From Candidatus Bathyarchaeota archaeon (GTDB lineage Archaea > Thermoproteota > Bathyarchaeia > Bathyarchaeales > Bathycorpusculaceae), in contig JAOZHS010000002.1 of NCBI GenBank assembly GCA_026014745.1, forward strand, positions 496,001-560,000: a DNA stretch of 64,000 bases, read 5' to 3'. The notes under the pieces were generated by a model. That model saw only the letters and a program-made list of their open reading frames with translations, did not search any database and had not been told where the DNA came from. Within the stretch, counting starts at the first letter, position 1, and each line of letters opens with the position of its first letter. Below, piece by piece: positions 18,524 through 24,232 of this stretch. The translations under genes and the position numbers were made by a program.

Positions 18524-18877
18524 ATGAAACTCTTACCTATACTTGGAGGTGTTGTGGCTGCGGTTGTGTTCTTCTTCGCAGTCATATTTGCGCTTGCAGC
18601 TTCGGTTGCGGCGCCTACCACGCGGCTTGCCACCAGCGGCATCCTATTCGTCATAGGCATCGTCATAATCGTCGGCGTATACTATACCACGCGCAAACCC
18701 AAAACCGTCATCCAGCGCTTTGAGGTCTCTGGGCAAATGGGTGCTGCCCAAATCAAATGTCCCCACTGTGGCGGCAGTGTTGAGGCTAGCCAAATCCAAA
18801 TATCGGGTGGTGTGCCTTATGTTAAGTGTCCGTATTGTGGGACAACGTTTGAGGTTGTTGAGAAACCAAAATGGTAA
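18524..18877 (+). CDS. Membrane protein with C-terminal zinc ribbon
   Basis: 117 residues. Two N-terminal hydrophobic segments (GVVAAVVFFFAVIFALAASVAA and SGILFVIGIVIIVGVYYTT) are followed by a cytoplasmic zinc ribbon CPHCGGSVEAS...CPYCGTTFEV near residues 79-109. It overlaps the next gene by 7 bases, so translation is probably coupled. The zinc ribbon may bind nucleic acid or protein. It forms the first gene of a unit with the Cys-tailed membrane protein and the radical SAM enzyme. Confidence 0.75.
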   Translation: MKLLPILGGVVAAVVFFFAVIFALAASVAAPTTRLATSGILFVIGIVIIVGVYYTTRKPKTVIQRFEVSGQMGAAQIKCPHCGGSVEASQIQISGGVPYVKCPYCGTTFEVVEKPKW

Positions 18878-20505
18878 ACCTCCGCGTGTTTGTGTTTGTT
18901 GCGTTGTTGGCTGTGGCGCTCTCAGCCTCCACCCTATGCCTCGCAGGCGCTCAAAGCAGCTTAGCGTATACAGTTGATCATGAATGGGCGCAGATATTCA
19001 TCAATCAGGACGGCACCATCGACTTAATCTACAACATTTCTGTCACGATTACACAGGGGTCTATGGGTGGCTTCTATGTGGGGCAACCCAACGGCGACTA
19101 CACGATTGGGGAAGCCCGTGACCAAAACGGGAACCCGCTTGAGGTTAACTATGCTGATGAGGGCAGCAACTACCGGGTGGATGTGCTTTTTAACCCGCGG
19201 TTGCAGGCGGGTCAATCCATGTGGTTTGAGGTCTCCACTAACGTGGCAGGCATGATAAGCAACGACACCCAAAACCCCGGCAACTACGGCATGCAATTCA
19301 TCCCCCAGTGGATAAGCGACACCCCAATCGACGATGTGCGCATCCAAATTGTGCTACCCCCGGGGGTTTCTACAGGTGACGTGAAAACCACACAGGAGAG
19401 CTATTACAATGGCACATCTATGGTGGATGGGCAATTGGCTGTTTACTGGGAACGCCCCCAAATCGGCGCAGGCGAACAGTTTATGGTTGGGGTCTCTTTT
19501 CCCAGCAGCGCCCTACCCAACTACACGCCCTCCGAGCCTTCAAGCGGTGGCCCCGATCTCTCCATAATCTTCCCAATTATCTTCGGCGTCTTTGCACTTA
19601 TCCTCATCATAGGCGTCATACGTGTTGCGCGAAAATCAGCCTACACTTCGCCTAAAGTCAGCATGGAGACACTCGGCGTCAAACGCGGCTTAACCGCCGT
19701 GGAAGCCGCTTACCTCTTGGACCTAAAACCGCCTCAGCTAGTCACCGCCATCCTCTACAGCCTACTTCAAAAACGCGCGGTTTGGGCACAAGAAACCAAG
19801 CCCTCCCTCAAACTCAAAGTGCTCCCACCCTACGAAGACAAAGTCGGACCCAAAGACAGTCCCCTGCGTTACTACGAAATAGATTTCCTCCGCGCTCTCC
19901 GCGCCGACGGAACCCTTGACGAAGAGAAACTGGCGCGAACAGTTATGTTTCTGCGAGATACGGTGGAGCAGAAGATGGAGGGTTTCAGCCGCAAGGACAC
20001 AGTGGCGTATTATGGGCGGATTGTAGCGGAGGCTTGGACGCAGGTGGAGCAAGCAGGAACCCCCGAGTTAGCCTCTAACGCTTACGATCAGCAGCTACTT
20101 TGGCTCATGTTAGACCCCAACCAACGCACCAAAACCGAAACCGCATTCCGAGACCGCGTGTTCACGCCTAACCCGTTGTGGTTCTGGTGGTGGTACGGCT
20201 ACACAGTTTATCATCCCCACCCCACCTATGTCCCCAACGTTTCCGTACCAGCCCAGTCGGGTCCAGCCCCAACCATTCCCGGCGCCCAATTCGCAAACAA
20301 CATCGCTACAGCCATCGAATCCACAGGCAACAACATCGTAGTCAACCTCGAAAAATTCGCCAACTCCATCGTCCCCGCCCCACCCAAAGCCAGCCACGAA
20401 CCAGCTCATAAAGGAGCCAACTGCGTATGCGCCTGCGCCGCATGTGCCTGCGCCTGTGCATGCGTCTCATGCGCTTGTGCCTGCGCTGGAGGAGGCGGAC
20501 ACTAA
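18871..20505 (+). CDS. DUF2207-like membrane protein with Cys-Ala repeat tail
   Basis: 544 residues. A signal sequence (residues 1-30, VFVALLAVALSASTLCLAGA) leads a large extracellular beta domain (HEWAQIFINQDGTIDLIYNISV onward). A membrane helix follows near residues 230-250 (LSIIFPIIFGVFALILIIGVI), then a cytoplasmic part with a winged-helix-like KRGLTAVEAAYLLDLKPPQL segment. This layout resembles DUF2207 proteins. The last 28 or so residues are almost only Cys, Ala and Gly, with ten Cys mostly spaced CxC, ending GGGGH. The radical SAM gene follows after one base; its ribosome site GGAGGAGG is formed by the codons of the Gly-rich end. The tail could be a substrate for that enzyme (inference). 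Confidence 0.75.
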   Translation: MVNLRVFVFVALLAVALSASTLCLAGAQSSLAYTVDHEWAQIFINQDGTIDLIYNISVTITQGSMGGFYVGQPNGDYTIGEARDQNGNPLEVNYADEGSNYRVDVLFNPRLQAGQSMWFEVSTNVAGMISNDTQNPGNYGMQFIPQWISDTPIDDVRIQIVLPPGVSTGDVKTTQESYYNGTSMVDGQLAVYWERPQIGAGEQFMVGVSFPSSALPNYTPSEPSSGGPDLSIIFPIIFGVFALILIIGVIRVARKSAYTSPKVSMETLGVKRGLTAVEAAYLLDLKPPQLVTAILYSLLQKRAVWAQETKPSLKLKVLPPYEDKVGPKDSPLRYYEIDFLRALRADGTLDEEKLARTVMFLRDTVEQKMEGFSRKDTVAYYGRIVAEAWTQVEQAGTPELASNAYDQQLLWLMLDPNQRTKTETAFRDRVFTPNPLWFWWWYGYTVYHPHPTYVPNVSVPAQSGPAPTIPGAQFANNIATAIESTGNNIVVNLEKFANSIVPAPPKASHEPAHKGANCVCACAACACACACVSCACACAGGGGH

Positions 20506-20506
20506 A

Positions 20507-21847
20507 ATGAGTTTCCTCAAAAAACAAAAGATACCCACAGGACGGTTTAGCTACCGCGCCGAAGACAAATACAAGGGCATGTCCCTGCAGCTCCGCGTTG
20601 AACCCAGCAGACAGGGCGTCATGGCGATTAACGCTAACACGATTCTGCACCTCAACCACACCGCAACCGCACTGGCATACTTTTTCATGCAGGGGCTACC
20701 TCAAGCGGAGGTGGTTAAGAAGATGCGAAGTCTCTACCGCGTCAGCGAGCAAACCGCCAACGCCGATTATGAGCAGCTTGTCTACACGATTAGTACGCTG
20801 GCGCAGACCGAAAAAATCGATCCCGTTACGTTTCTGCGCATCGAAAAGGAGGATCCCTTCACTTACCAGTACACCGCCCCGCTACGCATGGACTTGGCGT
20901 TGACTTTCCGTTGCCAAAACGACTGCGTGCACTGCTACGCTGGAGGACCACATGAAACCCCAGAATTGACGACGGAACAGTGGAAGGCAGTCATTGACAA
21001 ACTCAGCGACATCGGTGTCTTCATCTTAACCTTTACCGGCGGCGAACCCACACTCCGAGACGACCTGCCCGAGCTTTTGCTGTATGCTCAACATCGTGGC
21101 ATGGTCACGGGGCTAATTAGCAACGGGCGCCGCCTCAAAGACCCCGCCTACGTGGCACAATTAGAAAAGTCTGGGCTGGACTTTGTCCAAATCACCCTTG
21201 AATCCCACAAGCCATCCGTACACGACGCCATGACTCAATCTGAGGGCAGCTGGAAAGACACTGTGGTAGGCATCAAAAACGCGGTGCACTCCCAAATCTA
21301 CGTCTCCACCAACACCACCCTTAGCAAACAAAACGCTGACCACTTCCTAACAACCATCGACTACATCAAAGAACTCGGCGTCGACGCATTTGGCTGCAAC
21401 AGCCTCATCTACAGCGGTAAGGCGTCCCAAGCCAGCGATGAATTTGCGCTGTCCATCGAGCAGCTTAAGGTGCTGTTGCCGCAGGTCCGCGAAAAAGCGC
21501 AGATGCTTCAACTCAAATTCCTCTGGTACACGCCCACGCAGTACTGCCAATTTGACCCCGTCCAATACGGGCTGGGCCTAAAATCCTGTACAGCGGCTAT
21601 GATTACGGCATGTGTCGGACCCAACGGCGACGTGTACCCCTGCCAAAGCTACTTCGAATCACTCGGTAACATCCTCACTAAGCCGTGGGATACGATTTGG
21701 CGCAACCCCCTTGCCGAAAAGCTCCGCAAACGCGAATACGTGGAGGATAAGTGCAAGGATTGCGGTCAGTTGCAGGTTTGTGGCGGCGGATGCCCCCTTG
21801 AACTCCAAAATAAAAATATCAATAATCAAGCGGAAGGGGGCGCTTAA
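20507..21847 (+). CDS. Radical SAM/SPASM protein with PqqD-like N-terminus
   Basis: 446 residues from the ATG at 20507. Residues about 30-95 (GVMAINANTILHLNHTA, then SLYRVSEQTANADYEQLV) resemble a PqqD-type peptide-recognition element. The core has the CQNDCVHC cluster motif (CxxxCxxC), FTGGEPTLRDDLPELL and LISNGRRL. The C-terminal SPASM region carries further cysteines (CTAAMITACVGPNGDVYPCQSY and CKDCGQLQVCGGGCPLE) for auxiliary 4Fe-4S clusters. Enzymes with this layout modify peptides, often forming thioether or C-C links. The adjacent Cys-rich protein tail is an obvious candidate substrate. Confidence 0.9.
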   Translation: MSFLKKQKIPTGRFSYRAEDKYKGMSLQLRVEPSRQGVMAINANTILHLNHTATALAYFFMQGLPQAEVVKKMRSLYRVSEQTANADYEQLVYTISTLAQTEKIDPVTFLRIEKEDPFTYQYTAPLRMDLALTFRCQNDCVHCYAGGPHETPELTTEQWKAVIDKLSDIGVFILTFTGGEPTLRDDLPELLLYAQHRGMVTGLISNGRRLKDPAYVAQLEKSGLDFVQITLESHKPSVHDAMTQSEGSWKDTVVGIKNAVHSQIYVSTNTTLSKQNADHFLTTIDYIKELGVDAFGCNSLIYSGKASQASDEFALSIEQLKVLLPQVREKAQMLQLKFLWYTPTQYCQFDPVQYGLGLKSCTAAMITACVGPNGDVYPCQSYFESLGNILTKPWDTIWRNPLAEKLRKREYVEDKCKDCGQLQVCGGGCPLELQNKNINNQAEGGA

Positions 21848-22421
21848 CTTAGCTAAGAAATCCTTCGTTGTCGCAATTATTTCGGCATTAATACTGTCGA
21901 TGCTATCCGCAGTTTCTTTTGCTAGCGCCAATTTTATTCCAACAAATGCGGAAATTGACTTAATGGAGCCCTTGCCTAAAACAGTTAAAACCTACGATGC
22001 GGCGGACATCCCCATTGTTGTGGTTGTGAAAGAACCCCTCAATGCACCACAAAACTATCATCGCATCACCAACATTTACTACAGCATAGACGAATACCCG
22101 AACACAGAAATAACAAATATAACCGAATCGGAGAAAGATTGGTTTAGCGGCACCTGTACGGAGTATCGTGCAAGCGCAAGCATAGCGAATTTAACAGCAG
22201 GTAACCATACTTTGAGGGCTTACAGCGTTGATGACCTTGGAAATCGCTTATCAACAACTCGCGAATTTGCATACCAACCAGATTTATCCTCAAACGAAAT
22301 AAATACTGAATCTTCAGGTTTTGATTATACACCTGTTTTGATTGTTGGTTTAATTGCAATCAGTGTAGTTGGATGCGGCGTATTCTTTTTCAAAAAACAC
22401 AAAGCTCAGCCGCTAACCTAA
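21798..22421 (+). CDS. Secreted/anchored protein with C-terminal membrane helix
   Basis: About 207 residues. I use a TTG at 21798 (GGCGG 8 bases upstream), which overlaps the radical SAM gene by 50 bases; no other standard start fits before the signal peptide. The N-terminal signal is KKSFVVAIISALILSMLSAVSFASA. An Ig-like extracellular domain follows (ANLTAGNHTLRAYSVDDLGN), then a C-terminal helix VLIVGLIAISVVGCGVFFF and the basic end KKHKAQ. It is common as a cell-surface protein type. Whether it belongs functionally with the radical SAM unit is unknown. Confidence 0.65.
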   Translation: MNSKIKISIIKRKGALNLAKKSFVVAIISALILSMLSAVSFASANFIPTNAEIDLMEPLPKTVKTYDAADIPIVVVVKEPLNAPQNYHRITNIYYSIDEYPNTEITNITESEKDWFSGTCTEYRASASIANLTAGNHTLRAYSVDDLGNRLSTTREFAYQPDLSSNEINTESSGFDYTPVLIVGLIAISVVGCGVFFFKKHKAQPLT

Positions 22422-22497: not shown

Positions 22498-23733
22498 ATG
22501 GAGTCCATGCAGAAGCCCCGCCTTGTTGTTTTCGACGTTGAAGGAGTACTTATCCCCAAAAACCGCTTCTTCTTTGAAGTGGGCCGAACCTTGGGGTTCT
22601 GGAAGCTGATTCGACTGCTCCTGTTGGGTTTTCTCTATGAAGTGGGCGCGCTTAGACTAGATTCTGCTCTTCGCCGCATCTTTGGCGAAATGCACGGCAT
22701 GAAACTCGAAACTATGGCGGAGGTTTTTAATCGGATTCCCGCGTCGCCTTATCTGCAAGGTTTTTTTGAGCAACTCCACAGTCGCGGCTGCAAAATCGCG
22801 CTTATCAGCTCTGGGCTGCCCACGATTCTTGTCGAGAAGTTAGCGGAATGCGTCGGCGCACAATACGCCTATGGCATTGACGTGGAGATTGTGAACGGTA
22901 GAGTGACAGGGAAAATTGGGGGCGATGCCATCGAAAAAAATGGCAAACTCAAAATCTTTAGCCGCATCATCACCCAAGAGAACCTTCGCCTACGGGACTG
23001 CGCCGTGGTGGCAGATGACCGCAATAACAGTTGCCTCTATTTGCCAGGGATGCTTAAAATCGGTTTTAACCCCGACTTCGTATTGCGGGTCAAAGCGGAC
23101 CGCGTCGTGAACGGTAGACTCCAAGGCATAATCCCCATAATCGACGGCGAACCCCACAAACGCTCCTTTCCCTCCACCAACGATTTCGTTCGTGAAGATA
23201 TCCATGCTTCAGGCATCTTTATGCCCGTCATCGCCTCCCTCATCGGCGTCCCCATAGTCGCATCCATAATCATTGTAATCGCCATAATCTACACGGCATC
23301 CGAGCTTTTCCGTCTCCAAGGCCGCCAACTCCCCTTCATCTCCGCCGTCACCCGCCACGCAGCTTCCCAGTCAGAAATCTACGGTTTCGCCGCTGCCCCG
23401 CTCTATTTTGCCTGCGGCATAGTTTTGACGTTGGTGCTTTTCCCTGCTCAAGCCGCGGGGGCAGCCATCGCGATGTTTTGCCTCGGCGACAGCACGGCTT
23501 CTTTGTTTGGCGGGATGATTTCGACGTCTCTGCCGTTTAATAAGGGTAAAACTTGGGAGGGGTCTTTGGTGGGTTTCTTTTTTGCTTTTTTGGCAGGCTG
23601 CTTCTTTGTTCCGCCTCAAATCGCGTTGATAGGCGCCGCAATAGCCATGACAGTAGAAGTTTTGCCGCTACCCCTAAATGATAACGTACTCATACCCGTC
23701 ATAACTGGCGCAGCGCTGACGTTGCTACTTTAG
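22498..23733 (+). CDS. HAD phosphatase fused to dolichol-kinase/CDP-DAG synthase-like membrane domain
   Basis: 411 residues in two parts. Residues 1-225 form a HAD-IB phosphatase of SerB/ThrH type: VVFDVEGVLIP (nucleophile Asp; Glu in place of the usual second Asp, as in ThrH), LISSGLP, and VADDRNNSCLY. Residues 240-411 have several membrane helices with GDSTASLFGG, NKGKTWEGSLVGF and EVLPLPLNDN, the CTP-binding signature shared by dolichol kinase and phosphatidate cytidylyltransferase-like enzymes. The fusion suggests one protein that both adds and removes phosphate on an isoprenoid alcohol or lipid (inference). It is a single gene with a start near an AAGGT ribosome site. Confidence 0.8.
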   Translation: MESMQKPRLVVFDVEGVLIPKNRFFFEVGRTLGFWKLIRLLLLGFLYEVGALRLDSALRRIFGEMHGMKLETMAEVFNRIPASPYLQGFFEQLHSRGCKIALISSGLPTILVEKLAECVGAQYAYGIDVEIVNGRVTGKIGGDAIEKNGKLKIFSRIITQENLRLRDCAVVADDRNNSCLYLPGMLKIGFNPDFVLRVKADRVVNGRLQGIIPIIDGEPHKRSFPSTNDFVREDIHASGIFMPVIASLIGVPIVASIIIVIAIIYTASELFRLQGRQLPFISAVTRHAASQSEIYGFAAAPLYFACGIVLTLVLFPAQAAGAAIAMFCLGDSTASLFGGMISTSLPFNKGKTWEGSLVGFFFAFLAGCFFVPPQIALIGAAIAMTVEVLPLPLNDNVLIPVITGAALTLLL

Positions 23734-24201
23734 CTGGTAGAGGGCGTTTTGGTAGTCTTTGACGTAGCTGTTTTTTCCCTTCTTGACTACGGTGTGACCT
23801 TCCCCTTGTAGTAGTATGGTTTGGGTTTCGACGCCGCCGGGGTATTTCTCGTTAATCATGCCTTTTACTTTGAGGGTGCGCCAGTAGGGTGTAGTGTCGG
23901 TTTTGCCTTCTTGTTTTTGTTCTTCTGCGGCGTTGGCTGCTATCCACGCAAAAATGCCCGTGGTGATGGGACAACCGATGGTGGCGCCATGTTTAACGGC
24001 TAAGGCTTGGCGTATTTCATTAATGGTTATCACTTTGCCCTCGGGAACCTGCCGCATGTACGCGTCTACTTCAAGAGGCGCAGGTATGACAACTGTTCCT
24101 GTGCCCCAGCTTTTGCGCAGTTTATCGTTAATTGGAGAAACTTTGGGGCAGCCTTTGCTGTCGTGGAGTTTTTCTTGCCAAGTAGGCTTACGTTTTGGCA
24201 T
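23725..24201 (-). CDS. MGMT-like (alkyltransferase-like) protein
   Basis: 158 residues. The central segment QVPEGKVITINEIRQALAVKHGATIGCPITTGIFAWIA resembles the DNA-binding helix-turn-helix domain of O6-alkylguanine-DNA alkyltransferases. The catalytic PCHR motif is absent; GCPITTG takes its place. Related archaeal proteins are annotated as MGMT family or ATL-like. A role in DNA binding or damage signalling is possible. Start ATG at 24201 (MPKRKPTWQEK). It ends convergently, overlapping the preceding fusion gene by 9 bases. Confidence 0.7.
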   Translation of the reverse strand: MPKRKPTWQEKLHDSKGCPKVSPINDKLRKSWGTGTVVIPAPLEVDAYMRQVPEGKVITINEIRQALAVKHGATIGCPITTGIFAWIAANAAEEQKQEGKTDTTPYWRTLKVKGMINEKYPGGVETQTILLQGEGHTVVKKGKNSYVKDYQNALYQLK

Positions 24202-24232
24202 AACAACAACCATTTTCTATTCGGTGGAGGGG

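Follow-up and report, generated by a model that had tools for sequence, protein, structure and literature searches.

A conserved archaeal fusion of a HAD phosphatase with a dolichol-kinase-like membrane domain, and the links of relatives of the membrane half to putative genes of ether-lipid synthesis

Introduction

How might a phosphatase and a membrane domain resembling CTP-dependent lipid kinases work together in a single protein? This question is raised by a gene in the window, i.e., the whole stretch of 64,000 nucleotides of Candidatus Bathyarchaeota archaeon DNA analysed in this study. The first-pass annotation, made from the letters alone, had described a HAD phosphatase fused to a membrane domain similar to dolichol kinases and CDP-DAG synthases, and had suggested that the protein would carry opposing phosphotransfer activities or a phosphatase suited to the product of the membrane enzyme. 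Both halves come from known superfamilies, and a pairing of this kind has a parallel in yeast, where Pah1 belongs to the HAD enzymes and Dgk1 is related to dolichol kinases. To our knowledge, archaeal prenol kinase is known as an activity only, without a gene, and we know neither of a control point of the Pah1/Dgk1 type for archaeal ether lipids nor of an N-terminal HAD domain in prenol, dolichol, or phytol kinases.

As described in PMC3790011, the phosphatase Pah1 and the CTP-dependent kinase Dgk1, two proteins, jointly set PA versus DAG in yeast. Homologues of dolichol kinase occur across archaea, and the archaeal enzymes were described in 2024 as carrying extra, species-specific N-terminal domains (PMC11542857). 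A review from 2022, citing Ohnuma 1996, mentions a geranylgeraniol kinase activity of Sulfolobus (PMC9385802), while a publication from 2024 states that few genes of such prenol kinases have been identified, in plants (PMC10849223). Among the open-licence PMC titles and beginnings of abstracts listed in our searches, neither a HAD/dolichol-kinase fusion nor a DolK-like gene beside GGGPS was described.

The fusion gene and its conservation

22498–23733 (+ strand): whole fusion gene, 411 aa in an uninterrupted frame, to which 33 full-length homologues align

The fusion gene was found as a single copy in the 2.7-Mb, three-contig genome containing the window, and a search of this genome with the protein revealed no second relative at E 0.001. 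All motifs listed in the first-pass annotation were located in the deduced protein, namely DVEGVLIP (residues 13–20), GDSTASLFGG (330–339), KTWEG (351–355), and LPLNDN (391–396), confirming that a HAD phosphatase and a dolichol-kinase-like domain share this one ORF. An AF2 model of the entire protein reached a mean pLDDT of 86.7 and a pTM of 0.80. Alignment of the window protein with 33 full-length homologues (34 rows; homologues 28–73% identical to the window protein) revealed as invariant residues D13, E15, S104, S105, K150, D173, R232, H236, D331, N348, G355, and D395. Since these homologues align end to end with invariant residues, the ORF and its motifs are beyond chance.

Fusions of this kind may also arise when a frameshift or an assembly error joins two unrelated genes, in which case relatives should carry the halves as unrelated separate genes. 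Stand-alone C-terminal halves do exist (see below); apart from that, no support for an artefact was found. A single frame running through both halves was present in 95 of the 256 class genomes, the window's own among them (counted as a match from residue ≤8 to residue ≥407 in one stop-free frame and tallied by hand from the rows), and partial matches were obtained in three further class genomes (G147, G213, G212). In a sample of the phylum, full-length matches occurred in 37 of 398 genomes (E ≤ 5.6e-122), 35 of these within the class and two outside it (G497 and G544, both of family f48), and the next-best match was a single domain (1.7e-66). No close relatives with both halves as separate genes were found among the 256 class genomes. 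Since the close HAD-only matches in G111 and G158 stop at contig ends (5 and 32 bases away, respectively) and the full-length frames are conserved, the fusion is genuine; its conservation, which extends to two genomes outside the class, refutes the artefact and leaves it practically no probability.

The N-terminal HAD half

22498–23181 (+ strand): HAD-IB phosphatase domain, residues 1–228 (PF12710, TIGR01488, 1f5s, 1l7o)
22534–22545 (+ strand): HAD motif I, D13-V-E15-G16 in the DxE form, invariant in 34/34 rows
22597–22641 (+ strand): hydrophobic cap helix, residues 34–48 (FWKLIRLLLLGFLYE), a helix in the AF2 model
22807–22812 (+ strand): HAD motif II, S104-S105, invariant in 34/34 rows
22945–22947 (+ strand): HAD motif III, K150, invariant in 34/34 rows
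23014–23028 (+ strand): HAD motif IV, D173-D-R-N-N177, with D173 and N177 invariant in 34/34 rows

Residues 1–229 matched PF12710 (1.5e-11) and TIGR01488 (4.2e-13), and with 47.7 bits against a cut-off of 45 the protein passed the HAD-IB family model. The phosphoserine phosphatase (PSP) 1f5s matched this half with an E-value of 1.5e-18, and the closest fold to the AF2 model was that of the archaeal phosphoserine phosphatase 1l7o (Z 28.1, rmsd 1.7, 207 residues aligned). The fold of ThrH (1rku; Z 16.9, rmsd 2.8, 194 aligned) ranked below the PSP rows. ThrH has the DxE form of motif I, and it is only in this motif that the earlier label "ThrH-like" would hold, the fold being nearer to phosphoserine phosphatase. 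In motif IV, D174 was present in at least 90% of the rows, and N177 occupies the position at which the GDxxxD form, and with it PSP, has its second Asp.

The best 18-residue Kyte–Doolittle mean of the cap region was 1.62 in the window protein and 0.83 to 2.09 in 20 fused HADs, compared to −0.73 to 0.31 in seven non-fused HADs (out of 12 fetched), so that every fused cap compared was more hydrophobic than every non-fused one. In the two HAD-fused proteins from outside the class, L092 and L094, the best hydrophobic stretch lies at a different place of the cap region. Such a cap may contact the membrane or a lipid substrate.

With PSP as the nearest solved fold and no second relative of the fusion in the genome, the protein could be a membrane-bound phosphoserine phosphatase that replaces canonical SerB. 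Though fold and HAD-IB class are common to SerB (1l7o, 1f5s) and the N-terminal half, the fusion has DxE for DxD, N177 for Asp, the hydrophobic cap that sets it apart from the seven non-fused HADs, and a membrane domain. Furthermore, the score with the SerB equivalog model of NCBIfam (TIGR00338) was 72.3 bits, well under the cut-off of 144.15. The window's genome holds eight PF12710 matches including the fusion, six of them above the cut-off, so that others could serve as phosphoserine phosphatase, and genomes such as G060 and G051 harbor, next to the fusion, a separate HAD gene whose N-terminal region was read as ACT-like. With this score, this cap, and further HADs in the genome, we regard this identity as very unlikely.

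The C-terminal membrane half

23182–23730 (+ strand): DolK/Dgk1-like membrane domain, residues 229–411 (AF2 model, CdsA fold, PF01148 in relatives)
23485–23562 (+ strand): CTP-site motif GDSTASLFGG...NKGKTWEG, residues 330–355, with D331 and G355 in 38/38 and K351 and E354 in 37/38 fused proteins
23680–23685 (+ strand): D395-N396 near the C-terminus, with D395 in 38/38 and N396 in 36/38 fused proteins

Prenol, dolichol, and phytol kinases share the family motif D..A...G.......K..EG, and the CTP-site motif of the DolK/Dgk1/VTE5 superfamily (D..A...G...K..EG) was found at residues 331–355 of the window protein. Among 38 fused proteins, D331, N348, and G355 were conserved in all and K351 and E354 in 37. 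At the level of family models, the window's C-terminal half reached 11.5 bits with PF01148, under the gathering threshold of 24 bits, while 15 of 35 relatives matched this family with E ≤ 0.1 (lowest 1.7e-8). The window protein was not matched by the CarS family PF01864 at E 1; one of the 35 relatives reached it at 0.06 and one reached a CarS NCBIfam model at 0.0029.

The AF2 model of this domain alone was predicted with a pLDDT of 93.0 and a pTM of 0.89. The C-half profile found no match among PDB sequences at E 1, and Foldseek with the model found none at E 0.001; its top match was CdsA (CDP-DAG synthase) at E 0.46. Structure comparison likewise placed CdsA (4q2g) first (Z 8.2, rmsd 6.6, 165 aligned), and the CDP-archaeol synthase CarS (5guf) followed with Z 6.2 (rmsd 3.1, 96 aligned), level with the TRIC channel 5wuf (Z 6.2). 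These best matches are weak, since values of Z below about 13 can be common among helical bundles, and the fold thus backs the motif without being proof. Altogether, the domain reading of the first-pass annotation and the fusion itself stand, and the fold of the C-terminal half agrees weakly.

CarS activates DGGGP with CTP (PMC4244643). A separate CarS is encoded elsewhere in the window's genome (1.5e-40), so that the C-terminal half is not needed as CDP-archaeol synthase, and this identity was rejected. Among the 111 genomes in which the C-half profile matched strongly, 31 gave a second match, and 59 of the 145 others gave a weak one (hand count). The idea that a second and more distant C-half relative, some 240 aa long, acts as a replacement was dropped, the signal being too weak and including fragments.

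Relatives of the C-terminal half and their gene neighbourhoods

All 45 loci outside the class among the matches were fetched. Profiles for the scan of their neighbouring genes were built from PAP2 genes and from seven further seeds, of which Pfam identified five as UbiA and two as PcrB. Two of these loci were without a C-half match (L154, L158), two were HAD-fused (L092, L094), four were PAP2-fused, and 37 carried a stand-alone gene. In 24 of the latter, the stand-alone gene was located directly downstream, on the same strand, of a PcrB (17 loci) or a UbiA gene (7 loci), and with start codons assigned in this analysis by the longest ORF, it overlapped this upstream gene in 20 of the 24. The linked DolK-like genes include L097–L100, L102, L103, and others within L127–L153. 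Given the archaeal setting, PcrB would be of the GGGP synthase type and UbiA of the DGGGP synthase type, and based on this gene order the DolK-like genes directly behind them are candidates for an archaeal prenol or dialkylglycerol kinase. The 13 unlinked loci comprised ten distant relatives (E > 1e-25) as well as L086, L096, and L101. UbiA was found on the opposite strand 0.8–2.0 kb off in the distant relatives L155–L157 and 4.1 kb off in L101.

Within the class, 15 stand-alone loci were scanned. In three of them (L084, L085, L087), the gene and a PAP2 gene (PF01569 match) converge and overlap at their 3′ ends, and in L165, a distant relative among these 15, the gene is located 5 nt downstream of UbiA. 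Near the HAD-fused genes, neither PcrB, UbiA, nor PAP2 was detected in the fetched stretches of the 37 loci scanned. The earlier proposal of isoprenoid alcohol salvage or archaeal lipid synthesis gained independent support on the side of lipid synthesis, by way of the PcrB and UbiA neighbours of C-half relatives.

In four loci (L093, L095, L151, L152), the C-terminal half is fused to a PAP2 phosphatase, whose identity was established by a Pfam run for L093 and L095. As in the HAD fusion, a homologous membrane domain is joined to a phosphatase; in contrast to it, PAP2 is attached at the other end and the CTP motif is degraded. With this motif largely gone, no kinase is expected in the PAP2 fusions.

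These gene links also bear on dolichol or polyprenol phosphate recycling for glycosylation lipids, in which the HAD half would act on dolichyl phosphate and the C-terminal half would be the dolichol kinase. This half bears the motif of a superfamily that includes dolichol kinases and is the only match to its profile in the window's genome at E 0.001. On the other hand, the stand-alone relatives are linked to PcrB and UbiA, an observation that is one-sided in that the scan covered PcrB, UbiA, and PAP2, and the window's genome encodes BacA and three PAP2 matches that could handle polyprenyl pyrophosphate. Weighing these points, we consider this role rather improbable. The presence of BacA and the three PAP2 matches also weakened the idea that the fusion is a missing dolichyl pyrophosphate phosphatase; class-wide, PAP2 matches were found in 95 and BacA in 156 of 256 genomes.

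Phylogeny of the C-terminal half

Of 94 rows (93 and the window), 14 divergent and nine same-genus ones were removed before the trees were calculated. The PcrB-linked rows formed one clade (100/99), the UbiA-linked rows, joined by a single unlinked one, were placed in another (100/100), and the PAP2 fusions made up a third (100/97). As each linkage is confined to one branch, PcrB and UbiA linkage together count as about two events and not 24. Judged from gene order and tree, they are few events, long kept, and both appear to point to one pathway. The HAD-fused rows did not form one clade (4–5 changes on the trees, with weak deep branches), though a single origin of the HAD fusion with losses is likely. 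The stand-alone genes L088 and L091 nest among HAD-fused rows and have thus probably lost the HAD half.

The charged clamp

23191–23205 (+ strand): R232-E-D-I-H236, at the site of the kinases' R-K-x-x-H clamp, with R and H in 38/38 fused proteins

For the prenol kinase PfPolK, a charged clamp Arg-Lys-x-x-His is described (PMC10849223). In the window protein, R232 and H236 of this superfamily clamp are present and the Lys is exchanged for Glu. Thus, the C-terminal half has the CTP-site motif and the clamp R...H in common with Sec59/DOLK, VTE5, FolK, and PfPolK, but differs from them in the clamp Lys and in a PF01148 score under the cut-off. Of the two residues R76 and D177 of Dgk1, whose exchange (R76A, D177A) abolishes activity (PMC3486869), we read the equivalents as R232 and D331 of the fusion.

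Among the 38 fused proteins, the clamp Lys was replaced by Glu in 32, the window protein included, and by another residue in three, while three retained it, among them both proteins from outside the class (L092, L094). It was also replaced in the three readable of the four PAP2 fusions and in 3/3 PAP2-adjacent proteins. In comparison, Lys was retained in 9/11 solo, 7/7 UbiA-adjacent, and 16/16 readable PcrB-adjacent proteins, and in 8 of the 13 readable among the 14 most distant relatives. Overall, 64 of 69 rows agreed with an association between the Lys-to-Glu exchange and linkage to a phosphatase; on the tree, this association comes down to two independent well-supported pairs, and the sign test was not significant. 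With Glu in 32/38 fused proteins, kinase activity of the fused C-terminal half may be lost or changed, and since the Lys is mostly replaced in the fused form, the opposing phosphotransfer activities suggested by the first-pass annotation stand as a proposal.

The exchange in 35/38 HAD-fused proteins, set against its retention in most solo, UbiA-adjacent, and PcrB-adjacent proteins, and the loss of most of the CTP motif in the PAP2 fusions would fit an enzyme that is a lipid phosphatase only, its C-terminal half being devoid of phosphoryl transfer after the change from Lys to Glu and serving now as an anchor and a lipid- or nucleotide-sensing module. However, D331, N348, K351, E354, G355, and D395 are each conserved in 37 or 38 of the 38 fused proteins, although a domain serving purely as an anchor could do without them. 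Moreover, the Lys pattern amounts to the two contrasts just mentioned, and three fused proteins, including L092 and L094, still have the Lys. We therefore judge this phosphatase-only enzyme to be unlikely.

Proposed function

The reading that we favour, tentatively and with somewhat less than even confidence, is that of a kinase and a phosphatase keeping the phosphorylated form of an isoprenoid lipid in balance with the alcohol, by analogy with yeast Pah1 and Dgk1. Accordingly worded as a model, the fusion would be a membrane enzyme. Its HAD-IB phosphatase would lie on the cytosolic side, turn its hydrophobic cap to the membrane, and be tied to a CTP-site domain of the superfamily of dolichol, prenol, and diacylglycerol kinases. 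At the surface of the membrane, the HAD half would use D13, E15, S104, K150, and D173 together with Mg2+ to dephosphorylate an isoprenoid lipid monophosphate. The C-terminal half would bind lipids of this same family and, probably, (re)phosphorylate the alcohol from CTP or, in a variant of this model, would have lost the return of the phosphate and sense a nucleotide or lipid instead. Together, both halves would determine how much of an archaeal ether-lipid or polyprenol pool is phosphorylated precursor and how much is free alcohol. The data show the fusion with its conservation, the signatures of both active sites, the folds as predicted, the hydrophobic cap, and the linkage of C-half relatives to ether-lipid-type genes and to other phosphatases; the lipid substrate, the direction of both reactions, the use of Mg2+ and CTP, and the cytosolic side we infer.

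The likeness to Pah1 and Dgk1 lies in the pairing of a phosphatase with a CTP-dependent lipid kinase, and it is only this way of working that is compared. In yeast, the two are separate proteins, whereas here the phosphatase is of the HAD-IB/PSP type and the clamp Lys is Glu; a Pfam search with the window protein revealed no lipin family at E 1.

A wider proposal combines three parts, namely a phosphatase/kinase switch on one polypeptide for ether-lipid precursors (geranylgeranyl phosphate, GGGP, or DGGGP versus their alcohols), stand-alone kinases, and general gating. Taken jointly, these parts are doubtful. If they were true, the relatives behind PcrB and UbiA would be the archaeal kinase of geranylgeraniol or (di)geranylgeranylglycerol for which a gene has been missing, and the repeated joining with HAD and PAP2 would represent a general archaeal way to gate the entry into membrane lipid synthesis. 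The conserved gene pairs of the CTP-site domain with GGGPS- and DGGGPS-type genes, together with the two phosphatase fusions, make both questions, i.e., that of the kinase gene and that of the control point, testable with a few small proteins.

Neighbouring genes of the fusion

Conserved neighbours of the fusion, compared over 38 loci, were mainly found within the window's own lineage. An upstream gene read as pyrE in L071 and L079 was judged accidental. In the window (18524–22421), a radical SAM gene group precedes the fusion, and a radical SAM gene was identified upstream on the same strand in 11 of the 38 loci, an arrangement not seen in the others. The gap between radical SAM gene and fusion is smaller than 100 nt in nine of the 11 loci, while one ORF lies between them in the window and L013. 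In these 11 loci, the radical SAM gene is mostly found behind zinc-ribbon and Cys-tail genes, and a functional link of this group to the fusion is possible.

In the window itself, the gene at 18871–20505 (+) encodes a 544-aa protein with a Cys/Ala-rich C-terminal tail (CVCACAACACACACVSCACACAGGGGH), for which no Pfam match at E 0.1 and no NCBIfam match at E 0.01 was obtained. A tail of similar kind is kept in 11/11 members of its cluster, the window included. The product of the next gene (20444–21847, +) belongs to the radical SAM/SPASM proteins and matches PqqD weakly. The pair resembles a membrane protein whose peptide tail is modified by a maturase of its own. At the other side, the gene at 23725–24213 (−) converges with the fusion gene, the two overlapping at their 3′ ends; the product of the former revealed a weak match to the MGMT DNA-binding domain (0.0016, under the cut-off), and its cluster is present in 8 of the 38 loci.
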